Positions 2,532 through 17,101 of a DNA stretch of 42,189 bases are shown in pieces; position 1 is the stretch's first letter; each line of letters opens with the position of its first letter. Made by a program: the position numbers and the translations under genes. Where the stretch lies: positions 1 to 42,189 of the forward strand of contig NZ_AZCZ01000021.1 in NCBI RefSeq assembly GCF_001434055.1. The letters are read 5' to 3'. The DNA is from Levilactobacillus parabrevis ATCC 53295 (GTDB taxonomy: Bacteria > Bacillota > Bacilli > Lactobacillales > Lactobacillaceae). A model generated the notes under the pieces. The model made no database searches. It had not been told where the DNA came from and saw nothing but the letters and a program-made list of their open reading frames with translations.

Positions 2532-4433
2532 TTAGTTCGTGGCTAACTGCTGAACGGGTTGTTTCGTGGGCTTGTTGACGTGGGGATGGTAGCCAATCAA
2601 GCGCATCGCGTTGAAGATAACGACGAGGATTGAGGCTTCGTGGACGAACATCCCACTGGCCATGTAGATGTAACCGTAGACCAGGCCAATCAGTAAGAAC
2701 AAGACCGTAGCGATGGCAATCGTGATGTTTTCCTTGGTGTTGGCAGAGGTCTTCTTGGCCAAGCCAACCGCGTGATTCAGGGCGTTGAAGCTGGATTGCA
2801 TCAGGACAACATCCGCCGTTTCAATGGCGACATCGGTCCCACCACCCATGGCAATACCGACGCTAGCGGTGGCTAAGGAAGGACTGTCGTTGATACCGTC
2901 CCCAACGAAGGCCACGTTGCGACCCATGTCTTGGAACTTCTTGACGAAGGTAACCTTGTCGGCTGGTAACAGGTCGGCGTGGACCTCGTCGATGCCTAAG
3001 GATTCGGCAACGGCTTGGGCGGTGGCTTGGTTGTCACCCGTCAACATAACCAGGTGCTTGATACCTTGGCGTTTCAGCGCAGCGAGTGCGGCGGGAACTT
3101 CTGTCCGCACTGTGTCAGCAACACCGAGGATGAAAGCTAATTGACCTTGGTAACCGACCAATACCGTGGATTGGCCATCGTCTTGCATCTCGTGTAAATC
3201 AGTTAATTGCGTATCGGTTAACGTAATGCCGTTGTCTTTCAACAGGGCAGCATTACCGACGTAGAGGGGTTCATCGTGCCATTGACCGATCATGCCGCGA
3301 CCCTTGATGGTTTCGGTAGTCATGGTGGCCGCATCCGCTGGCATGTGGGCAGCGAGATGACTCGTAATGGCTGTTGCTAACGGGTGATCGGAGGTTTGTT
3401 CGACCTGAGCGATGGCACCTAATAAATCGGAATCGCCTGTGTATTGTTTCATGCTAGCGACGTCCATTTTACCCGTCGTTAACGTCCCGGTTTTATCAAA
3501 GACAATCGTGTCGACTTTGGCGAGACTTTCAACCACATCGCCACCCTTGATAAGAATGCCGTTCTTAGCACCGTTACCGATCCCAGCCACGTTGGAGACT
3601 GGCGCACCGATAACCAGGGCCCCAGGGCAACCAAGGACGAGGACCGTGATGGCCAACCGGAGATCTTGTGAGAAGACGAAGACCAGAATGGCAATGACCA
3701 GAACGGCTGGCGTATAGTATTGGGCAAATTTGTCGATAAACTTTTCAGCGGGAGACTTGGTGTCTTGGGCTTCTTCGACCAATTCAATAATCTTGGAGAA
3801 GGTCGTTTCATCACCAACTTGGGTGGCTTCAATCTGCAGGGTACCACTTTCGACCATGGCACCGGAGTAAACACCATCGCCATCAGCCTTGTTGACGGGC
3901 CGGGATTCACCAGTAATGGAGGATTCGTTGACGTAGCCAGTACCGCTGACGACTTTGCCATCGACGGGGACTTGGCCACCGGCTTTGACGAGGACAATGT
4001 TGCCTTCCTCAAGGTCATCGACATCGACTTCTTCAGTCTCACCATCGTCACCGACCAGTAGTGCCGTGGTTGGGGCCATTTCGGTCAGGGATTGAATCGC
4101 GCCCCGCGTCTTGGCCAACGTCTTTTGTTCCAAGTAGGAACCGAAGAGAAATAGGAATGTTACAATGGCTGATTCTTCAAATTCACCGATGGCAAACGCC
4201 CCGATAACGGCGATACCGACCAGTAATTCAATACTGAAGACTTTGGCCTTCAAAGCACTGATGGCCCGCAGAACGATGGGAGCTGCGGCGATAACGGAAG
4301 CGATGATCCAGGCGGTGTCGGTGACGTAGGGCACCTTGGTGAACCAGGCGTTGAGGAAGCCGACGATAATCAAGCCGGCGGACCAGAAGGTAATAGGATT
4401 AGTGTGAGAATAAATATAACGTTGGAATGCCAT
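2532..4433 (-). CDS. P1B-type heavy-metal ATPase with CPG and HEAS motifs (P1B-4-like exporter)
   Basis: 633 residues. ATP-driven metal export is expected. Visible motifs: TGES (174-177, actuator), CPG in the metal-binding membrane helix (269-271), the DKTGTLT phosphorylation site (D313), SDHPLA (the HP motif of P1B pumps), TGDN, GDGINDSP, and HEAS in the last membrane region (about 598-601). P1B pumps normally have CPC, SPC or TPC in this helix; CPG is a departure. HEAS resembles the HEG-G/S-T signature of P1B-4 pumps, a group that includes Fe2+, Co2+ and Zn2+ exporters. There is no N-terminal HMA domain; separate HMA proteins are encoded at 10.6-11.1 kb under a matching promoter. The ATG at 4433 follows GAAAGGA. 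The metal cannot be read from sequence; iron is an inference from subclass and the Dps-like partner. Confidence 0.88.
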   Translation of the reverse strand: MAFQRYIYSHTNPITFWSAGLIIVGFLNAWFTKVPYVTDTAWIIASVIAAAPIVLRAISALKAKVFSIELLVGIAVIGAFAIGEFEESAIVTFLFLFGSYLEQKTLAKTRGAIQSLTEMAPTTALLVGDDGETEEVDVDDLEEGNIVLVKAGGQVPVDGKVVSGTGYVNESSITGESRPVNKADGDGVYSGAMVESGTLQIEATQVGDETTFSKIIELVEEAQDTKSPAEKFIDKFAQYYTPAVLVIAILVFVFSQDLRLAITVLVLGCPGALVIGAPVSNVAGIGNGAKNGILIKGGDVVESLAKVDTIVFDKTGTLTTGKMDVASMKQYTGDSDLLGAIAQVEQTSDHPLATAITSHLAAHMPADAATMTTETIKGRGMIGQWHDEPLYVGNAALLKDNGITLTDTQLTDLHEMQDDGQSTVLVGYQGQLAFILGVADTVRTEVPAALAALKRQGIKHLVMLTGDNQATAQAVAESLGIDEVHADLLPADKVTFVKKFQDMGRNVAFVGDGINDSPSLATASVGIAMGGGTDVAIETADVVLMQSSFNALNHAVGLAKKTSANTKENITIAIATVLFLLIGLVYGYIYMASGMFVHEASILVVIFNAMRLIGYHPHVNKPTKQPVQQLATN

Positions 4434-4496: not shown

Positions 4497-4538
4497 ATTA
4501 TGCCTGGGAATGGCGGACATTAACTTGATGCGAATCAA
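4497..4538 (-). promoter_or_regulatory. FNR/CRP-type box at -41.5 with -10 box, promoter of the metal ATPase
   Basis: Minus strand: TTGATTCGCATCAA (4525-4538), a perfect TTGAT-N4-ATCAA box, then 22 bases, then CATAAT (4497-4502) as -10. If CATAAT occupies -12 to -7, the box is centred at -41.5, the class II activator position. No good -35 is present, as expected for an activator-dependent promoter. The same arrangement precedes the HMA-HMA-Dps operon at 11160-11201. Confidence 0.7.
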
Positions 4539-4817
4539 GTTGGCTGATTTATTTTAAATAAAGTGAGAATTATTGTCTGCGATTACTGGAGGCTCTGTCA
4601 CTAATTGCTTTGGTTGTTGGTTGTGGTACTGAGCGATGAAGCTTGTCGTCTATCAATCGGTAAAGCTTGTAAGATATGAAAATCCACCTGCAGTGTCGTT
4701 TTGACATTGTAGATGGATTTTTGTGATTGATAGAATTGAATGTCACGGGTTTCAATAATTCTTGAATTAGTAACTATCGTGAACCGCAGGCGACGGGTAA
4801 TCACTCATTTAAGGGAA
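4539..4817. other. Intergenic region without a gene; contains a strong hairpin
   Basis: Apart from the hairpin terminator at 4679-4722 nothing coding is convincing. The short reading frames here have no ribosome site and overlap the hairpin. Confidence 0.5.
4679..4722. terminator. Long hairpin terminator downstream of the GH31 gene
   Basis: A 19-bp stem (one mismatch, two G-T pairs) with loop GTTTT; outer arms AAAATCCA and TGGATTTT. It lies between two leftward genes, so it probably ends the alpha-glucosidase transcript. The stem is longer than an ordinary terminator. Confidence 0.7.
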
Positions 4818-7127
4818 TTATTTCAACCGGTAACCATCGCTGGCGCGGTCGTAGGTCAACGTTACGCTGCTGTCTGGCAGATCGACCGTAATCGTCTGGT
4901 AGGCGGGATCGTAACCGTGGTGCAACAGGTCAACGGCCACCTGGCCATCCTTGACGGTGATTTCGTAGCGGTTGAATTCGCCGTTTTGATAATTGAAGTC
5001 GAGACCGTCATCTTGGTAATGGGTGTAGGTGCCGGCATTGCCGAAGAGCTTGAAGGTCATGGTCGTATCGGGCTCCTCGCTGATATGGCTGACTGGTGCG
5101 CCCCATGGTAAGAGGGTGTCTTTCTTGATAAATAGAGGCAGCTTAGCCAGTGGTGCATCGGCGACAATGTCCTGGTTACCCGTGTATTCACGGTTGTTCC
5201 AGAAGTCAATCCACTTACCAGCTGGCAGGTAGACGAGCCGTTTAGTTTGAGACTTCTGAACGACTGGCGCGACTAACACATCGTCACCAACCATGTATTC
5301 ATCGTTTAAGTCGCGAGTCCGTGGGTCATCCTCGTAGTTCAGAACCAGTGGCCGCATGACGGGAAGCCCAGTCTGACTTTCCTGCGCAAATAGATCGTAC
5401 AGGTAGGGGATGAAGCGGTAGCGGAGCTTCAAGTACTTGCGGTAGATCGACAGCGTCGGTTCACCGAAGGCCCATGGTTCCTGCCGCCGGGTGCCCATCG
5501 CCGCGTGGTTCCGCAGTAGGGGACTGAAGATAGCGGCTTCGATCCACCGGGTCAGCAGTTCAGCGTTAGTATCGGAAGCAAAGCCCCCGATGTCGGTGCC
5601 GACAAAGCTGAAGCCACTCAGTCCTAAGTTGCAGAGCTGAGGGATCATCATTTGAATGTGTGGCCAGATACTCCGGTTATCCCCGGTCCAAACGGTCGAG
5701 TACTTCTGAGTCCCAGCGTAGGCCGCCCGGGTGATGACGTATGGCCGCCGTCCCTGTTGACTCTTCAGGCCTTCATAGGTGGCCTTGGCCATGTTGTGAC
5801 CGTAAACGTTGTGCATCTTGGCGTGAGTTGATGGCGTGTCCTGGTCGCTGAAGACCACATCGTCCGGGATGTTGCCCTCAAACGTTGCGGGTTCGTTCAT
5901 GTCGATCCAGACCCCACCAACACCGTTGTCCGTTAGGAATTTATTGTTGTTTGCCCACCACTTGCGAACCGCTGGCCGACCAAAGTCGGGGAAGGCGGAG
6001 TCGCCGGGCCAAACTTTGTTGATGTAGACCTTGTTATCCGGTGTCTTGACGAAGTAATCCTGTTTGAGGCCTTCCGCGTAGGTGTGATAGTTCGGGTCCT
6101 GTTTAACGCCGGGATCGATAATTGGAATAACTTTGATCCCGTTTTGCTTGAGTTTGGCCACGAAGGCCTTGGGGTCACCCTCGAATTTATCCTTGTCCCA
6201 GGTGAAAACTCGGTAGCCTTCCATGTAGTCGACGTCAAAGTGAATCGCATCGCAGGGGAGATCGTACTTCTTCAGGCCGTCTACAATCGTTTGGACTTCC
6301 GCCTGGCTGGCGCTGTAGCCCCAACGCGATTGTTGATAACCCAGCGTCCACTTCTGTGGCAATGGCACGCGACCGGTGAGGTAGGTGTAGTTGGTCACAA
6401 CGTCCTTCAATGTTTGGCCGCCAATGATGTAGTAGTCTAGATTGCCTTGAACGGCAGAGTAGAAGTAGTAGTGGGTGTCTTCCTTACCCATGTCGAAGTG
6501 ACTCTTGTAAGTGTTGTCGAAGAATAGACCATAGGGATGACCGTTCTTCAAGCCCAGCATAACGGGAATCGACTTGTAGAGGTTCGGAAAGTTTTCGAGT
6601 TGGGGAGCGGGGTTATCCACGTTCCAGTTGTCGTATTCGAAGCCCCGCTTGTCGAGGTAGCCGGTCTTGTCACCCAGACCATAGAGGTGTTCGTCAGGAG
6701 CGAGGGCCTTGACGACTTCGTAGTAGCCCGTATCGGACTTGACCGTTGACTTCGTGACACTGTGACCTTCGGCTTCAACCAGCCGTTGGTGAACCTTGTC
6801 GATCCCCTTGTCGAGGAGCTGCCGTTCGCCGCGGTAGTCGGTGACGAGGGCGTTGCCGTTGGCGTCGTAAGCGTCCACGTGGCGGTCAGCATCTAATTTC
6901 AGTGTCAGAGCGCTGGTCTTTAATTCATAGTGATCGCCGGCGTCGGTAAGGGTGTAGTTGGTCGGTTGTTCCTTGTTGCCTTCGATGGCGTAGGATTGGC
7001 CGTTGTCGCCGCGATTTTCAAAGACCCGGATGATAGCGGGGGTCACAACGGTAAGCTGCAGGGGATGCTGCGGATAATCCAGTGTCACCGTTTGTTTAGT
7101 TTGCGTGTATTTTGGTAAAGTTGTCAT
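4818..7127 (-). CDS. GH31 family alpha-glucosidase
   Basis: 769 residues, full length for bacterial GH31. The enzyme releases glucose (or another alpha-linked sugar) from non-reducing ends of oligosaccharides. Landmarks: an N-terminal beta domain (about 1-250), HFDVDYM (about 296-302), the catalytic nucleophile region WIDMNEP (D409), the acid/base region TGDNRS (D483), GTDIGGF (about 510-516) and RNHAAMGTR (about 539-547), then C-terminal beta domains. There is no signal peptide, so it acts inside the cell on imported sugars. It lies 30 bp downstream of an SLC45-like permease on the same strand and opposite a LacI regulator, so it probably works on the permease's substrate, such as maltose, isomaltose or related glucosides. 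The exact linkage is not readable. Confidence 0.93.
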   Translation of the reverse strand: MTTLPKYTQTKQTVTLDYPQHPLQLTVVTPAIIRVFENRGDNGQSYAIEGNKEQPTNYTLTDAGDHYELKTSALTLKLDADRHVDAYDANGNALVTDYRGERQLLDKGIDKVHQRLVEAEGHSVTKSTVKSDTGYYEVVKALAPDEHLYGLGDKTGYLDKRGFEYDNWNVDNPAPQLENFPNLYKSIPVMLGLKNGHPYGLFFDNTYKSHFDMGKEDTHYYFYSAVQGNLDYYIIGGQTLKDVVTNYTYLTGRVPLPQKWTLGYQQSRWGYSASQAEVQTIVDGLKKYDLPCDAIHFDVDYMEGYRVFTWDKDKFEGDPKAFVAKLKQNGIKVIPIIDPGVKQDPNYHTYAEGLKQDYFVKTPDNKVYINKVWPGDSAFPDFGRPAVRKWWANNNKFLTDNGVGGVWIDMNEPATFEGNIPDDVVFSDQDTPSTHAKMHNVYGHNMAKATYEGLKSQQGRRPYVITRAAYAGTQKYSTVWTGDNRSIWPHIQMMIPQLCNLGLSGFSFVGTDIGGFASDTNAELLTRWIEAAIFSPLLRNHAAMGTRRQEPWAFGEPTLSIYRKYLKLRYRFIPYLYDLFAQESQTGLPVMRPLVLNYEDDPRTRDLNDEYMVGDDVLVAPVVQKSQTKRLVYLPAGKWIDFWNNREYTGNQDIVADAPLAKLPLFIKKDTLLPWGAPVSHISEEPDTTMTFKLFGNAGTYTHYQDDGLDFNYQNGEFNRYEITVKDGQVAVDLLHHGYDPAYQTITVDLPDSSVTLTYDRASDGYRLK

Positions 7128-7157
7128 ACGAATTCTCTCCTCAATCAGAAGTTAAAA

Positions 7158-8582
7158 CTATTGTACATCTTCAGATAAATCTTTCTGTGGCTTATCTTGC
7201 TTGAGCACGCTGATGGCTAAGACCGCGATCAGCATGGAAATCCCAGCGACCAGCATCATACCAGGCATGGACTTGCCGACCAGACGGAAGACCAGGAAGC
7301 TGGCAACGGAGGCGATGATCTGTGGTAAACAGATTGTCCCGTTAAAGATTCCGATGTAAGAACCTTCGTTGGATCCATTCAATGATGACGTGAAAATGTT
7401 GAAGGGTTCAACGTGGACCGTGAAGAAGCCAATCCCGATTAAACAGAATGGTAAGATCAGCAGGTACTGGTTGTGGATGAAGAAGACCCAGATCAAGCCG
7501 ATAGCGAAGCAGGTAATCCCGAAGCGGTACCAGAATTTCCGCTTGAAGGGGTTAGTGTGTGACAGAATCAGAAAGCCATAGAGTACGGCAGCCATGGACT
7601 GAATAAAGGTCAGAATCCCGTACCAGTTCCCAGCGGCTTGATAGCCGGCAGACGTGGCATTGGTCGTGTTCCAAACGTTTTGGGCAATGGCCCCGGTCGT
7701 GTAGGTCCACATGTATTGAATCCCGATCCAAGCGAACATTTGCACGATGGCGACTTCCCACAAGGCCTTAGGTGCTTCCTTGATCAGTTGCCAGATGGAC
7801 TTGTGATTCTTGTGGGCTTGCGGATCGATCTGGTGATAGTCAGCGTAAGTTTCTGGATCGTATTCCTTAACGGAGTGGATGGTGTAAGCGGAAATGCCTA
7901 ACAGAATGGCGGCTCCAATGTAGAAGGCTAAGCGGACGGAGAGGGGCACAACGCCCTTCTTAGCGGTGTTGGCGACCCCGAAGTAGGTCAGCACGAAGGG
8001 GAGTAAAGTGGCGAGCACCCCACCTAAGTTACTGAAGGCTTGTTGCCAAGACCAAGCTTTATCCTTTTGATTTTCGTTGACCATGTCACCGATGATCATC
8101 CGGAAGGGTTGCATGCAGACGTTGCTGGAGAGGTCCATCAGCAAAATGGCAATGGCCCCGAATAGTAAGGCGGCAAGTGAGGCGTAACCGAAGCCAAATG
8201 ACCCGGCATTAGGTAACAGAATCATAACCAGTGCGGCGATAGGGGCACTGAACAACAGGTACGGCATCCGCCGGCCAAAGCGTGGTGACCAGGTCCGGTC
8301 GGAATACTTCCCGACCAGTGGCTGGACAATCAATCCGGCAAGCGGGGGCAGAATGAAGAAGAGTCCCAGGTTGGTCGGGTCGGCACCAATCGTTTGGAAG
8401 ATCCGGCTCATTTGTGATGACTGTAGTGAGAAGGCCATGTTGACCCCACAGAATCCAAATGTAATCGCGAATAATGTCTTCAATGGTAAATTTGGCAGGG
8501 AATTTGAGATCCGTGCTGGTTTCTTGGCGGCAGTTCCAGTCGGTTTAGCGGCTCCAGCTGCGTGTGCTGTTGGTTGATTCAT
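7158..8582 (-). CDS. MFS sugar permease, SLC45/GPH-like (probable maltose-type oligosaccharide transporter)
   Basis: 474 residues with about 12 membrane helices. After a 30-residue Ala/Pro/Lys tail come FCGVNMAFSLQSSQMSRIF and the loop VGKYSDRTWSPRFGRRMPY, which match the SLC45-like group of sugar/proton symporters (the conserved G-x-x-S-D-R ... G-R-R loop between helices 2 and 3). It would import an alpha-glucoside for the GH31 enzyme encoded 30 bp downstream. The ATG at 8582 follows AGGGGAT on the minus strand. The promoter overlaps the twin operators at 8648-8691, so repression by the divergent LacI protein is likely. The substrate is inferred from the neighbour. Confidence 0.85.
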   Translation of the reverse strand: MNQPTAHAAGAAKPTGTAAKKPARISNSLPNLPLKTLFAITFGFCGVNMAFSLQSSQMSRIFQTIGADPTNLGLFFILPPLAGLIVQPLVGKYSDRTWSPRFGRRMPYLLFSAPIAALVMILLPNAGSFGFGYASLAALLFGAIAILLMDLSSNVCMQPFRMIIGDMVNENQKDKAWSWQQAFSNLGGVLATLLPFVLTYFGVANTAKKGVVPLSVRLAFYIGAAILLGISAYTIHSVKEYDPETYADYHQIDPQAHKNHKSIWQLIKEAPKALWEVAIVQMFAWIGIQYMWTYTTGAIAQNVWNTTNATSAGYQAAGNWYGILTFIQSMAAVLYGFLILSHTNPFKRKFWYRFGITCFAIGLIWVFFIHNQYLLILPFCLIGIGFFTVHVEPFNIFTSSLNGSNEGSYIGIFNGTICLPQIIASVASFLVFRLVGKSMPGMMLVAGISMLIAVLAISVLKQDKPQKDLSEDVQ

Positions 8583-8647
8583 GGTGTGACATCCCCTTGA
8601 TTAATTTAAAACAATTACCTTTCAACGCCTATATCCTATCACTTTAC

Positions 8648-8691
8648 GTAAACGTTTACAACGGCTATTCTACAGTAAGGTAAACGTTTAC
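8648..8691. promoter_or_regulatory. Twin LacI-family operators in the divergent promoter region
   Basis: Two copies of the perfect palindrome GTAAACGTTTAC (8648-8659 and 8680-8691), centres 32 bp apart, about three helical turns. Each is extended outward by GTAA/TTAC in mirror orientation. For the leftward permease gene, -35 TTGTAA and -10 TAGGAT with a 17-bp spacer overlap the left operator. For the rightward lacI gene, TATAAT lies at 8724-8729, with a further half-site GTAAACG at about 8740. The left copy read on the minus strand matches cre at 13 of 14 positions, so CcpA might also bind. Confidence 0.85.
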
Positions 8692-8767
8692 GTAATCCGC
8701 TGTGAAAATGGGACGATTAAGACTATAATTAGGGAGTATTGTAAACGAAAGTCAGGTGGAGGTCGTT

Positions 8768-9742
8768 ATGAAGCCAACGATTAAAGATATTGCAGCGAAG
8801 TCAGGATTCTCGATTGCCACTGTCTCGCGGGTTCTGGGGAATAAGACCGGCTCGTATAGCGAAAAAACGCAAATTAAAATTTTAAAAGTTGCTAAGGAAC
8901 TCGGCTACCGCAAGAACTCGGTGGCCGTGGACCTGGTTAAGAAGCGCTCTGACGTGATTGCCTTGATCATTAATGCCACGCCAACCAACTTTTCCACGCA
9001 GATTATCGATGGTATTCAGCAGCGCGCCAGTGAATTGGGGCAGGGCGTTATTATCCTCTACGCGGGAAATCGGGACAATGGGCTCCAACATAAGGCCATC
9101 ATCACTGCATTGGAGCGGTCCGTGACGGGGATCTTGTTGGCGGCAATCGAGCCCGATGAGCAGGATCTAGCGTTGTTGAAGGCGTCACGGATTCCCTATT
9201 GTTTTGTCTCACTCTACTTGGGGACCCGGGATATTCTCGCCGTCAGTTCGGACAACCGGGACCTCGCCTATCAGGCCACGCAGTATCTGATTGACCGGGG
9301 CCACACGCGGATCAGTCTGGTCGGGATCGATGGCTACCATACCGGAAGTCAGCGCCAAGCCGGTTACCGTGATGCCATGGCGGCCAATCAACTGACAGCC
9401 GCGGACATTCTCTCTGGCGATTACAGCTATGAGTCCGGCGTGAAACTTCTCCAGCAGGTCCACGACCAGGGTGTAACGGCGGTAATCGCGGCCAGTGATA
9501 TGGTGGCGGCCGGCCTCCTGACAGCGGCCCAGCAGCAGGGGCTGACGATTCCCCGAGACCTCTCCATCATGAGCATTGATGGCACGATTATCTGTCAGAT
9601 TACGACGCCAGCGCTGACCAGTGTGACGCAGGATTTCTACCGCATCGGTAGTCAGAGTGTCAATAAAGTTATGGGACAGCCGGCGGAAGATTTTATCCCG
9701 GTCGTGATTACGGAGCGGGCGAGCGTAGCCGTTCAGAAATAG
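8768..9742 (+). CDS. LacI-family transcriptional regulator of the GH31/permease operon
   Basis: 324 residues from ATG 8768. A GTG at 8756 is also in frame, but GGAGG (8758-8762) ends five bases before the ATG and would lie inside the gene if the GTG were used. The N-terminal helix-turn-helix is clear: MKPTIKDIAAKSGFSIATVS, then RVLGNK. A periplasmic-binding-protein-like effector domain follows (from about residue 60, with ISLVGIDGY and the DLSIMSIDG region). It faces the permease gene across two identical palindromic operators and probably represses the operon and itself. The effector is probably the imported sugar or a product of it. Confidence 0.92.
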   Translation: MKPTIKDIAAKSGFSIATVSRVLGNKTGSYSEKTQIKILKVAKELGYRKNSVAVDLVKKRSDVIALIINATPTNFSTQIIDGIQQRASELGQGVIILYAGNRDNGLQHKAIITALERSVTGILLAAIEPDEQDLALLKASRIPYCFVSLYLGTRDILAVSSDNRDLAYQATQYLIDRGHTRISLVGIDGYHTGSQRQAGYRDAMAANQLTAADILSGDYSYESGVKLLQQVHDQGVTAVIAASDMVAAGLLTAAQQQGLTIPRDLSIMSIDGTIICQITTPALTSVTQDFYRIGSQSVNKVMGQPAEDFIPVVITERASVAVQK

Positions 9743-9772
9743 GGTTAATTTCCAGAAAAAATGTTTATGCAC

Positions 9773-9822
9773 AAAAACTGCTAGTTAGCGCTATCGTTGA
9801 ACGGCACTAGCTAGCAGTTTTT
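9773..9822 (+). terminator. Terminator after lacI-family gene
   Basis: Arms AAAAACTGCTAGTTAG and CTAGCTAGCAGTTTTT with one mismatch, ending in a T-run. Confidence 0.85.
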
Positions 9823-9871
9823 CTGTGGAATTGAGACGGTTGGGTCAATGATGATTGGTTTTATATAAATT

Positions 9872-9912
9872 AAAAGCCGTGAAGTCACCTCGCAGTGTGG
9901 CTTCACGGCTTT
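9872..9912 (-). terminator. Terminator of the HMA-HMA-Dps operon
   Basis: Arms AAAGCCGTGAAG and CTTCACGGCTTT with an inner pairing. On the minus strand it runs into TTTTAATTTATA, so it fits the leftward operon. Confidence 0.75.
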
Positions 9913-10031
9913 CGTATTACAGAGTTGACTGGAAAAATGACACGTGCTGGTGACTGAGCTAGTACATGGGTTTAGCGGCTAGTTTAGCCGGCACAATCCC
10001 TGGTAACCGCAGACGTCAGCATTAATCCCGA

Positions 10032-10595
10032 TTAGTCTTCGTCGTCATCATCGTCTTCTTCGTCCAGACCATCGCGGGCATCGTTGCCCAGTACGGCCTG
10101 AAGCTCACGGATGATGTGATTATTAGTGCCGCGTAACGTGGTCAGGAAGCTGGCCAGTGCGGGGCGTTCTTCCTTTTCGGCAAGCTTGATGGCCCGGTCG
10201 ATGAAGAGGTTGTGGGTATCTGCGTCGTGAACCAGCTCGTTGACTTGTTCTTCGGCGGTCAGGTACTTCTTGGCGCCACTTTCTTGGAGCATGTTGTAGT
10301 CATGGAATTCCTTGGTCGTGGTCGAGACGATTTCGCCCTCATCCAGGAGCAGTTCACCCAGAGCGTCGAATTGCTTGCGGTAGGTGTCGATGTAGTCACT
10401 GAGCAGGGTGCGGACGCTCAATGCCAGTGGACCTTTGACGGACCAGCGAACTTGATGGAATTTAACGATGGAGATGTGCAGGTTTGACAGGATATGGTTC
10501 GTCATAGCGCCTGCGGTTGGGACGTGGTGGTCGTGTTCCGTTTGGGCTTGTTCGGCAGCGTAGCGGTCTTCAACGGTCATTGTGGTGTTTGTCAT
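10032..10595 (-). CDS. dps: Dps/ferritin-like protein lacking the usual ferroxidase histidines, acidic C-terminal tail
   Basis: 187 residues from ATG 10595; AAAGGAAG precedes it, so a TTG 18 bases upstream is not the start. The fold match is the segment KFHQVRWSVKG ... FDALGE, which aligns without gaps to classical Dps (K-x-H-Q-V-H-W-x-x-x-G ... M-D-x-x-x-E). In classical Dps the inter-subunit ferroxidase site uses H31, H43, D47, D58 and E62. Here these are R50, R62, S66, D77 and E81, so three of five ligands are gone. The tail ends in a run of Asp/Glu (DEEDDDDDED) absent from most Dps proteins and possibly metal-binding. It is the last gene of an operon with two HMA proteins. Iron storage is uncertain; DNA protection or a partner role is possible. 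Confidence 0.82.
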   Translation of the reverse strand: MTNTTMTVEDRYAAEQAQTEHDHHVPTAGAMTNHILSNLHISIVKFHQVRWSVKGPLALSVRTLLSDYIDTYRKQFDALGELLLDEGEIVSTTTKEFHDYNMLQESGAKKYLTAEEQVNELVHDADTHNLFIDRAIKLAEKEERPALASFLTTLRGTNNHIIRELQAVLGNDARDGLDEEDDDDDED

Positions 10596-10627
10596 AGGTA
10601 AACTTCCTTTCAAATGTGGGTGGGGGA

Positions 10628-10855
10628 TTAGAGAGCCTTTACTTTAGAACTCTGAACGACGTAACCGAGATCGGTTACCGTGTCTGCTAGGCTTTCGGCG
10701 GTTACTTGACTGTCGTCGAATTCGGCCTTGATCTTGCTGGCATTGAAGAGGACTTTGACGTTTTCCACGCCATCCTTCTTGCTCAACGCGCCTTCGATCT
10801 TGGTCATGCAAGATGGGCAGGTCAGTGCATCTAACTTCATCGTTACTTTACTCAT
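10628..10855 (-). CDS. HMA-domain metal-binding protein, second of a tandem pair
   Basis: 75 residues, a single heavy-metal-associated domain with metal ligands C14 and C17 in TCPSC. ATG 10855 is chosen because GGAGG lies nine bases upstream; a TTG six bases earlier is less likely. By hand count it matches its upstream neighbour at 62 of 75 positions. Such proteins bind Cu+, Zn2+ or similar ions and hand them to P1B ATPases. The P1B ATPase in this window lacks its own HMA domain and has a matching promoter, so a donor role to it is plausible but unproven. It is followed 32 bp on by dps. Confidence 0.85.
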   Translation of the reverse strand: MSKVTMKLDALTCPSCMTKIEGALSKKDGVENVKVLFNASKIKAEFDDSQVTAESLADTVTDLGYVVQSSKVKAL

Positions 10856-10884
10856 AATCAAAAACCTCCTGTATTGTGTTTTAA

Positions 10885-11112
10885 CTAAAGTTGCTTAACT
10901 TTACTGCTTTGAACGGCATAGCCTAAGTCGGTGACGACGGTTGCGAGATCCTCAGCGGAGACGGTTGCGTCATCGAATTCGGCTTTAACCTTGCTGGCAT
11001 TGAAGAGGACCTTGACGTTTTCCACGCCATTCTTCTTGCCCAGCGCGCCTTCAATCTTGGTCATGCAAGACGGGCAGGTCAAGTCGTCTAATTTCATTGT
11101 TACCTTACGCAT
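10885..11112 (-). CDS. HMA-domain metal-binding protein, first of a tandem pair
   Basis: 75 residues from ATG 11112, with GGAGG upstream. A single HMA domain (beta-alpha-beta-beta-alpha-beta length) begins MRKVTMKLDDLTCPSC; C14 and C17 are the metal ligands. The motif reads LTCPSC, not the GMTCxxC typical of copper chaperones, so the metal is open. It is the first gene of the leftward operon HMA-HMA-Dps, with intergenic gaps of 29 and 32 bp, under an FNR/CRP-box promoter. Tandem duplication is recent enough that stretches of DNA remain nearly identical. Confidence 0.86.
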   Translation of the reverse strand: MRKVTMKLDDLTCPSCMTKIEGALGKKNGVENVKVLFNASKVKAEFDDATVSAEDLATVVTDLGYAVQSSKVKQL

Positions 11113-11159
11113 CGTGAAAACCTCCTTCGGCTATTTCGTTTGTCTTGATTACATAACCT

Positions 11160-11201
11160 AGTATACGGGCAGGTGCTCGGGAAAAACTTGACTCAAATCA
11201 A
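11160..11201 (-). promoter_or_regulatory. FNR/CRP-type box at -41.5 with -10 box, promoter of HMA-HMA-Dps operon
   Basis: Minus strand: TTGATTTGAGTCAA (11188-11201), then 22 bases, then TATACT (11160-11165). The box centre falls at -41.5 relative to the start implied by TATACT. Spacing is identical to the ATPase promoter at 4497-4538, and the bases around the box also match (AT-C/T-AG-C/T-CAAC before it, GTT after it). Confidence 0.72.
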
Positions 11202-15589: not shown

Positions 15590-17101
15590 TTGACACAAAT
15601 TACTTTAAAAAATATCACGAAAACAATTGCTGGCGAAACGCTGTTTAGCGTGGCGCAACTGACGGCTCACACCGGTGAACGAATCGGTATTGTGGGGGCC
15701 AACGGTACGGGAAAGACGACGCTGGCACGGATCATTGCCGGCAGCGATACTGATTTTGACGGCCAACGAACCGTGACTGATGATGTCACGCTGGTTCCAC
15801 AGATTGCCCCCACACGTGGGCGCTCCGGTGGGCAGAGCATGTTGGACCGGGTGCGAGTCGCCCTAGCGCAACGGCCAGCTATTTTGATTTTAGATGAACC
15901 CTCCGCCAATCTTGACGACGAGCATCAACGGTGGTTGGCGCAACAGCTCCTGCATTTCAATGGGTTATTGCTGCTGATCTCACATGACCGTGACTTATTG
16001 ACGACGGTCGCCACGCAAATCTGGTCGCTGACGGAGCGGACGTATACGCAGTACAGCGGTGGCTTCGCTGAGTTCACTGCCCTGCGAGAGCAACAACGGC
16101 ATAACGCGCTGGATCGGTACCAGAACGAACAGCGCGAAAGAAAAGAATTGCAGCAAGCCGTCCAGGCCCGTCATGAAAAAGCTGCTCGGATTCGTAAGGG
16201 GAGTCGAAGCATGAGCGCCGCTGAACGGTCGAATTCTAAGAAGATACGGGAACAGAATGCCGGTAAGATGGAGCGTGGTGCGCGGGCCTTACGGGAACGG
16301 GCGGACCGTCAGACCACGGCTGTGAAGCCGCATGAGTCGGCGCCATTGAAGATCGTCGCTACCGATCTACCACCCGTCACGGGGAAGTACCTCATTACGG
16401 TAGCGGATCTTCACCTGAAGCGGGGTAAACATGACCTGCTCCACCACGTGAAGTTGCGGATCCGTCCGGGTGAACGAGTTGCCTTGGCCGGACCCAATGG
16501 TAGTGGCAAGTCGACGCTGATCACGGCTATTTTAGATCAAACGCCGGGGACGCGATTGGCTCCCAGCGCGCGGGTAGGCTATTTCCATCAGGACATGACG
16601 CAGTTACCGACCGACCAAACGGTGTGGCACGTCTTGCGGCGAGCGACAGCGTTGGATGAGAATCGGACGCGCCAGGTGATGGGCGCCTTTGGTCTGACCG
16701 CTAACTTTTACGATCGACTAATTGGCGACCTCAGTGGTGGTGAGCAGGTCAAACTCCAACTGCTGACGATTCTGGTCAGCGCCAGCAATCTGTTGATTCT
16801 GGATGAGCCTACCAACTACCTGGATCTGCCAGCTCTGCAGGCACTCGAAGATTTTTTAGTCGGTTATCCCGGAACGGTCCTGTTCGTGGCGCATGACCAG
16901 ACCTTCCGAGAAAAGGTAGCAACGCGGGTACTAGAATTGACTGATCAAAAGCTGATCGATCCGAAACAAACGGCGCAAGGGACGCCAGTAACGGACCTGC
17001 CACGGCTACAGTTTGAATACGATCAATTGATGATGGCTCCCGAGCTGGATACCCAACGGCTCAAAGAAATACGAGCTCAAATTGCGGCCTTGAAGTCGTA
17101 A
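15590..17101 (+). CDS. ABC-F ribosomal protection protein (antibiotic-resistance subgroup likely)
   Basis: 503 residues with two ATP-binding domains and no membrane domain, so a soluble translation factor that acts in the ribosomal E-site region. Domain 1: Walker A GANGTGKT (36-43), GGQS, LDEPSANLD. Domain 2: GPNGSGKS, LSGGEQ, LDEPTNYLD. Between them is the basic interdomain linker rich in Arg, Lys and Glu (about 165-250). In domain 1 only about 38 residues separate Walker A from the signature, a compact form without the arm, as in Vga/Lsa/Msr-type proteins. The TTG start at 15590 follows AAGGGGG. The attenuator leader strongly supports drug-inducible expression; the drug class is not readable. 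Confidence 0.88.
   Translation: MTQITLKNITKTIAGETLFSVAQLTAHTGERIGIVGANGTGKTTLARIIAGSDTDFDGQRTVTDDVTLVPQIAPTRGRSGGQSMLDRVRVALAQRPAILILDEPSANLDDEHQRWLAQQLLHFNGLLLLISHDRDLLTTVATQIWSLTERTYTQYSGGFAEFTALREQQRHNALDRYQNEQRERKELQQAVQARHEKAARIRKGSRSMSAAERSNSKKIREQNAGKMERGARALRERADRQTTAVKPHESAPLKIVATDLPPVTGKYLITVADLHLKRGKHDLLHHVKLRIRPGERVALAGPNGSGKSTLITAILDQTPGTRLAPSARVGYFHQDMTQLPTDQTVWHVLRRATALDENRTRQVMGAFGLTANFYDRLIGDLSGGEQVKLQLLTILVSASNLLILDEPTNYLDLPALQALEDFLVGYPGTVLFVAHDQTFREKVATRVLELTDQKLIDPKQTAQGTPVTDLPRLQFEYDQLMMAPELDTQRLKEIRAQIAALKS

Follow-up and report, generated by a model that had tools for sequence, protein, structure and literature searches.

Two promoters of metal-handling genes in Levilactobacillus parabrevis ATCC 53295 carry the same FNR/CRP-type palindrome at the same distance from the predicted -10 hexamer, and this arrangement is conserved in relatives. 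Both lie in a stretch of 42,189 nucleotides (nt) that was analysed as a whole (contig NZ_AZCZ01000021.1, positions 1 to 42,189; the window); one precedes the gene for a P1B-type heavy-metal ATPase and the other a gene group for two HMA-domain proteins and a Dps-like protein (HMA-HMA-Dps). Judged from sequence, it is very likely that the promoters belong to one cassette and that a dimer of an Flp-type regulator activates both of them in the class II manner. The cassette would comprise a P1B ATPase with a CPG motif, an HMA metallochaperone-like protein, a DpsA-type protein and Flp, and the two promoters of the window would be its halves.

Both promoters are on the minus strand. In the window scan and in the comparison with relatives, the -10 hexamer of the ATPase promoter was CATAAT (4497-4502), preceded by a spacer of 22 nt (4503-4524) and the Flp/FNR-type box TTGATTCGCATCAA (4525-4538). 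The HMA-HMA-Dps promoter, located in the same way, has TATACT (11160-11165), again 22 nt (11166-11187) and the box TTGATTTGAGTCAA (11188-11201); both boxes were also recovered by a search of the genome. The coordinates thus confirm the distance of 22 nt that a preliminary description of this DNA had claimed for both promoters. The flanks agree as well, as had been described: the 5' sides read ATCAGCCAAC and ATTAGTCAAC and the 3' sides GTT. If transcription starts about 7 nt past the predicted -10 hexamers, both box centres are at -41.5, the same value as given before. The FNR consensus that had been invoked fits the first box; in the second, one half-site is changed (TTGATN4GTCAA), and the core across relatives is TTGAYN4RTCAA. 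The reported lack of a -35 element holds over 146 distinct promoters of relatives and window, in which the best match to TTGACA at 16 to 18 nt had only 1 to 3 of 6 positions, equal to shuffled spacers. An extended -10 (TGn) was found in none of these 146 promoters.

The extended 20-base-pair (bp) palindrome AACTTGAYN4RTCAAKTT had two positions in the whole genome of 2.61 Mb, and a reversed control had none. The genome-wide search that had been proposed therefore found it at the two window promoters and nowhere else. The core alone is weak evidence, since TTGATN5TCAA with at most one mismatch matched 31 times in the window, against 13.1 ± 4.4 matches expected by chance. Besides the two promoters, the exact core TTGATN5TCAA was present at 65 distinct sites, 64 outside the window and one inside, at position 17013. 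The analysis covered 60 of the 64 outside sites, including all 33 with TTGATN4RTCAA; three sites and one second site within a stretch were left out. Most analysed sites were intragenic. Nine were intergenic by a simple open reading frame (ORF) call, and one of the nine had a -10-like hexamer at 22 nt, namely the promoter of a CHRD-like gene beside flp2 (see below). A further box, at L101 (G000:C50:25076-25089), has TACAAT at 22 nt and lies behind a gene for a protein of 444 amino acids (aa); no ORF of at least 60 aa starts within 600 nt downstream of this site, which the ORF caller placed in an 83-aa ORF.

Conservation was analysed in three sets of loci. Set 1, from a protein search with the ATPase, comprised 80 named loci, to which the window is often added in the counts; 30 of them were from Levilactobacillus or plain Lactobacillus sp. 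(81 to 99% identity) and the others from Pediococcus, Lentilactobacillus, Lactiplantibacillus, Weissella, Sporolactobacillus, Enterococcus, Tetragenococcus, Oceanobacillus and more. An upstream box with a -10-like hexamer (at least 4 of 6 positions) at 22 nt was found at the ATPase in all 80 loci and in the window. Counted as distinct promoters of the 80 relatives and the window, 75/75 ATPase promoters and 70/71 HMA promoters had their -10-like hexamer exactly 22 nt from the box; any other spacing from 12 to 35 nt was seen in at most 11 and 8 of them, respectively. This count demanded an exact TTGAN6TCAA box, so that the box letters are conserved there by construction, and the middle of the spacer held about 0.1 bit per base. 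Genes for HMA proteins had a box of their own in 72 of 79 cases in set 1, whether apart from the ATPase gene or directly behind it (matches starting past residue 3 or less than 120 nt from the locus end were dropped). Six of the seven boxless genes were second tandem HMA genes, and the seventh, in L069, had a box farther upstream.

Sets 2 and 3 were chosen regardless of promoters. Set 2 consisted of 20 lower-identity loci of Lactobacillaceae, 16 of which had the box and the 22-nt spacing at the ATPase (with a hexamer of 3 of 6 in L186); the remaining four had both at the HMA gene heading HMA-Dps-ATPase units. In set 3, drawn from the class Bacilli, all 26 non-own loci had box, 22-nt spacing and -10-like hexamer, either before the ATPase or before a gene close by; L246 has other sequence in between, and the L259 box precedes the HMA match by about 800 nt. 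Of 241 boxes that had a -10 at 22 nt, 39 were classed as "other" by the ORF caller; judging by position, these include many of the same promoters and some unrelated sites. When the 20-bp pattern was searched in 151 Lactobacillaceae genomes, the reversed control matched in 7; among 30 listed loci with the pattern that were inspected, several sites outside the cassette had no -10 at 22 nt. The comparison of orthologous promoters, named beforehand as a check, thus gave conservation of the boxes in relatives and not their absence, and because the arrangement is conserved we accept the observation as real. Moreover, these promoters, about 145 distinct ones whose spacers have a single length and a mostly random sequence, make an unusually clean natural data set. 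Two further observations concern promoter copies. In L032 (L. namurensis), two complete tandem boxes lie about 100 and 200 nt before the ATPase, each with a -10-like hexamer at 22 nt. L061, L062, L063 and L065, from four different lactobacillar genera, have near-identical ATPase promoters and similar cassettes, a likeness across genera that suggests recent transfer, or contamination of assemblies.

Many relatives have the four genes together, that is, the CPG-motif P1B ATPase, the HMA protein, the DpsA-type protein and the Crp/Fnr regulator Flp. ATPase, HMA and Dps genes are adjacent in Lentilactobacillus, Furfurilactobacillus, Loigolactobacillus and others; an Flp-type gene follows them in Enterococcus, Tetragenococcus and one Sporolactobacillus locus, and likewise in Oceanobacillus, but there without a Dps match. 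In the flank examined, the Pediococcus loci also gave no Dps match. Lactiplantibacillus and Liquorilactobacillus have flp in divergent orientation to HMA-Dps, a few kb from the ATPase gene; at several divergent HMA/Flp loci, and also in L252, a single palindrome is 22 nt from the -10 hexamers on both sides. In Levilactobacillus, where the sequence covers both parts, the two are on the same strand, with HMA-Dps upstream of the ATPase gene by 0.3 to nearly 9 kb. The halves in the window are split by about 5.6 kb that hold genes which look sugar related by eye, and the flp genes are on other contigs.

The cassette is also widespread on plasmids. The ATPase was found in 412 plasmid records of PLSDB (Enterococcus 218, Lactococcus 60, Leuconostoc 34, Listeria 26, others), and 8 of 9 plasmid stretches around it hold ATPase, HMA, Dps and Crp/Fnr genes. 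A tenth stretch, from L. brevis, has HMA, Dps and two Crp/Fnr genes and, in the part examined, no ATPase gene. Plasmid pGdh442 carries ATPase-HMA-Dps-Flp, and each of the four genes (dps, flp, HMA and ATPase) has a separate box on the plasmids of L203, L205 and L206. For pLM58, the passages seen of two PubMed Central (PMC) articles list Dps, Crp/Fnr, a copper chaperone and a P-type ATPase side by side (PMC5663981, PMC8508797). The substrates of three further types of plasmid P-type ATPase are said to remain unknown in the part seen of a review of Listeria plasmids (PMC8508797); judging from that part, these ATPases probably include the one of the cassette.

Flp-type genes had been proposed as the place to look for the regulator. 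Indeed, the genome has two, flp1 (contig C41) and flp2 (C75), and in many relatives such a gene is part of the cassette. Flp1 and Flp2 score above the Pfam cut-offs for PF00027 (cNMP-binding type) and PF13545 (Crp helix-turn-helix). The motif E-x-x-S-R, the FNR-type recognition helix to which a TTGA half-site corresponds, was present in 54 of 54 Flp sequences, and two conserved cysteines, presumably as in FLP of Lactobacillus casei, in 53 of 54; the exception, L176, is an over-long start call. The set of four cysteines that holds the 4Fe-4S cluster of classical FNR is absent from the aligned Flp sequences, which share one N-terminal and one later cysteine, and the scores with the Fnr model PRK11161 were 83.6 and 60.5 bits, well short of its cut-off (228). 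A third Crp-family protein of the genome was rejected as the regulator, as it has no E-x-x-S-R helix. In the 151 genomes, the ATPase (E ≤ 1e-180) was found in 79, Flp (E ≤ 1e-20) in 98 and both in 78 (Fisher p 1.2e-22, uncorrected for phylogeny). In the Bacilli draw, Flp lies within the fetched flank in 24 of 26 loci. The preliminary claim of one FNR/CRP-type activator and one regulon is in keeping with the near-invariant geometry, the flp genes and their linkage to the cassette.

Several findings weigh against this picture. Flp is absent from the examined flank in many of the 80 loci, including L082, Pediococcus and Lentilactobacillus, from the stretches examined of L255 and L256, and, as an annotated Crp/Fnr gene, from the plasmid stretch of L204 (S. 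equorum). It occurs in 20 of 72 genomes that have no ATPase, and the 20-bp pattern is likewise present in some of the ATPase-less genomes, e.g., G053, G063 and G145. Genome G054 has the ATPase and intact boxes but gave no match to Flp; the contig stops shortly after the HMA gene. The HMA genes of L182 and L199, directly behind the ATPase gene, have no box. The sets of loci overlap: L248 and L193 are one locus, and L242 and L083 share one promoter. A box is missing at flp1 both in L. parabrevis itself and in all 13 relatives compared, and the tree sets Flp1 apart and Flp2 nearer to the Flp proteins of cassettes, on long branches and with an unsure root. Finally, the iron-exporter genes near the plasmid copies L203, L206 and L207 have no box with a -10 at 22 nt.

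The regulator gene would be unlinked to the cassette in this genome, with Flp1 as the likelier activator. A similarity search of 35 Levilactobacillus genomes found Flp1 in all of them and Flp2 in 17. The flp2 box starts 28 to 42 nt before flp2 in 17 of 17 genomes and has an A/T-rich centre; in 15 of 17 it is 22 nt from a -10-like hexamer that faces away from flp2, and a CHRD-like gene is on this divergent side in 16 of 17. From this arrangement, Flp2 looks dedicated to its own divergent CHRD-like gene. Since Flp1 is in every Levilactobacillus genome searched, and Flp2 in about half of them, mostly with a -10-like hexamer on the divergent side of its box, Flp1 is probably the activator of the window promoters. 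Control by Flp2, or by both proteins, is unlikely, though it deserves attention: Flp2 has the same recognition helix, its own box has the same half-sites, and it stays a candidate because the tree groups it with the cassette Flps and Flp1 apart. However, that grouping is unsure given the long branches, the box is oriented to the divergent gene, and all 30 Levilactobacillus-like ATPase loci keep the box although only 17 of 35 genomes have Flp2. Regarding the pair itself, Flp2 and the 184-aa CHRD-like protein are encoded divergently around an A/T-centred box (L002/L117, G000:C75), with a CHRD match below the Pfam cut-off, and an L. brevis plasmid (L268:12637-13926) carries a CHRD-like gene of 72% identity next to a Crp/Fnr gene with about 40% identity to Flp2, near HMA-Dps-Flp.

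FNR-family proteins can repress, and the box in the leader of flp2, just before its ribosome-binding site, would suit autorepression. But operators of repressors need no fixed spacing, and here the spacing is base-exact and a -35 is missing; repression by Flp at the box, or action in both directions depending on its state, therefore appears distinctly improbable. Still less is to be said for another regulator of the ArsR/SmtB, CsoR or Fur-like type that uses the palindrome with Flp as a bystander, which we regard as a very slim chance: genes for metal-sensitive regulators lie near L207 and L210 and ArsR-type genes near L205 and L208 (linkage was not searched systematically), and ArsR-type operators are also dyads of similar size, but the TTGA half-site fits the FNR-type E-x-x-S-R helix, and Flp genes lie with the cassette through much of the Bacilli and co-occur with the ATPase in 78 of 79 genomes. 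Chance resemblance, or inheritance of box and spacing without function, is practically negligible; the core is common and its analysed sites lie mostly within genes, but the 20-bp palindrome is confined to the two promoters and the spacer keeps a nearly constant length with mostly random letters.

Activation by Flp would proceed as follows. A dimer of the Flp type would bind AACTTGAYN4RTCAAKTT centred at -41.5, take the place of the missing -35 and recruit RNA polymerase through class II contacts; the base-exact spacing in about 145 distinct promoters without a -35 is the signature of a class II activator. The cysteine pair may sense a redox signal or a thiol-reactive metal; in L. casei FLP, two cysteines are reportedly tied to such sensing. 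The cassette, in turn, would export and buffer a toxic first-row metal. It is a tentative extension, less likely than the activation itself, that Flp is a metal/thiol-redox sensor whose ancestral and still widespread task in Bacilli is the control of a mobile metal-resistance cassette, with its CPG exporter, CPSC HMA chaperone and ferroxidase-poor Dps, through a base-exact class II promoter. If true, the dedicated activator of the plasmid copies in Lactococcus, Enterococcus and Listeria would be an FNR homologue and not ArsR, MerR, CopY or CsoR.

The ATPase of the window (2532-4433, minus strand; 633 aa; from ORF and profile scans) has E1-E2 ATPase and HAD domains, DKTGT, CPG in place of CPC and HEASI near the C-terminus, and it scored 563.8 bits with TIGR01525 (cut-off 346.25); the domain scan found no HMA domain in it. 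CPG was present in 81 of 81 ATPases (80 relatives and window), with HExSI near the C-terminus in 79. In the Bacilli set it was shown for 22 of 26; in the other four, the search expression caught another stretch first. P1B-1/2 ATPases have CPC as membrane motif and P1B-4 ATPases SPC. By this motif the window ATPase fits neither class, and the CPG ATPases look like a distinct P1B subgroup. ORF and profile scans placed the first HMA gene at 10885-11112 and the second at 10628-10855, both on the minus strand and both encoding a CPSC motif. The proteins are above the cut-off of PF00403 and reach 45.7 to 54.5 bits with the CopZ models NF033795/NF033794, short of the cut-offs of 91 and 95. The second gene has no box of its own and is presumably transcribed from the promoter of the first. 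The gene set described at the outset, an exporter-type ATPase, two HMA proteins and a Dps-like protein, therefore stands, except that this second HMA gene has no promoter box.

The Dps-like protein, assigned by profile and alignment (10032-10595, minus strand; 187 aa), is of the DpsA type, a ferritin-like protein with an acidic C-terminal tail, which refines the earlier call, as does CPG instead of CPC in the ATPase. Its best structure matches were L. lactis DpsA (1zs3) and another Lactococcus Dps (1zuj), which we take to be DpsB. The ferroxidase ligands of Dps are His31, His43, Asp47, Asp58 and Glu62 (L. innocua numbering). The window protein has R, R, S, D and E at these positions, so that three of five ligands (H31/H43/D47) are replaced; of 95 aligned rows, 9 have His at 31 and 10 have it at 43. 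The interposed genes (4818-9742, mixed strands, from the ORF list) lie outside the regulon and, with functions assigned by eye only, are alpha-glucosidase-like (4818-7127, minus strand), sugar-transporter-like (7158-8582, minus strand) and LacI-type regulator-like (from 8756, plus strand).

As for the metal, iron(II) is the leading guess, ahead of copper and zinc/cadmium, although we would not bet on it. It is favoured by the Dps of the cassette, by FetB and VIT1/CCC1 genes near plasmid copies, by HExS near the ATPase C-terminus, a P1B-4-like feature, and by RIC/ScdA-like proteins of 94 to 100 aa that L214, L221 and L229 encode behind a box and its -10-like hexamer at 22 nt. Given this same arrangement, the RIC-like genes may be further members of the regulon; the two of the three proteins that were scanned fell far below the NCBIfam cut-off, and a weak search found no such gene in the L. 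parabrevis genome. Oxidation of iron as the job of the Dps is weakened by the loss of three ferroxidase ligands in the window protein. Copper is favoured by the CPSC motifs of the HMA proteins and, near one copy, by a multicopper oxidase; CadD genes lie near other cassette copies. With regard to the plasmid neighbourhoods, fetB is near L203, L206 and L207 and VIT1/CCC1 transporters are also near L207; boxes at these genes were considered as proof of an iron regulon and rejected on account of the missing box with its -10 in the three loci.

Regulators of this type are known. FLP of L. casei and FlpA/FlpB of L. lactis, reportedly described by Gostick in 1998/1999 and Scott in 2000 (as cited in PMC5039431 and PMC3547956), are FNR-like proteins. 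They share with the proteins considered here the Crp/Fnr fold, the two cysteines and an FNR-like recognition helix; in contrast, Flp is tied here to a P1B cassette and to a base-exact class II geometry across Bacilli, and in Levilactobacillus the regulator is unlinked to the cassette. The flp operons of L. lactis are, as we understand them, orfX-orfY-flp, which may be the HMA-Dps-Flp part of the cassette, because pGdh442 has ATPase-HMA-Dps-Flp and the Dps matches L. lactis DpsA best. Part of the regulon may already be in print for L. lactis. In class II promoters of Escherichia coli FNR and CRP, a palindrome of TTGA half-sites at -41.5 goes with a poor or missing -35. The window promoters have the same palindrome position, as calculated from the predicted -10s, and no -35, but the targets are metal handling instead of anaerobic respiration or catabolism, and Flp has no cysteine set for an Fe-S cluster. 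P1B-4 ATPases resemble the window ATPase in lacking an HMA domain and in an HExS-like motif near the C-terminus, and PDB 7qbz is among the aligned homologues; the difference is CPG in place of SPC. No description of a CPG class of P1B exporter was found in the parts seen of the literature consulted, which was open-access PMC only. In the part seen of the work on Streptococcus suis, FlpS is likewise an Flp-type activator in Lactobacillales, but its target is the arginine deiminase operon (PMC5039431). The FlpA regulon is listed as expanded in lactic acid bacteria under metal homeostasis, with members unnamed in the text seen (PMC3616900). The metal regions of Listeria and Enterococcus plasmids have the same gene set as the cassette, but the passages on them describe no regulon, box or promoter geometry (PMC5663981, PMC8508797). 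The cassette as an Flp regulon is undescribed in the passages seen of PMC3616900, PMC3547956, PMC5039431, PMC5663981, PMC8508797, PMC9484302 and PMC12282311 (open-access PMC literature). FLP and FlpA are thus known regulators; what is new is the proposed cassette-wide, geometry-locked regulon, which links the two L. parabrevis promoters to a widespread plasmid-borne metal cassette.

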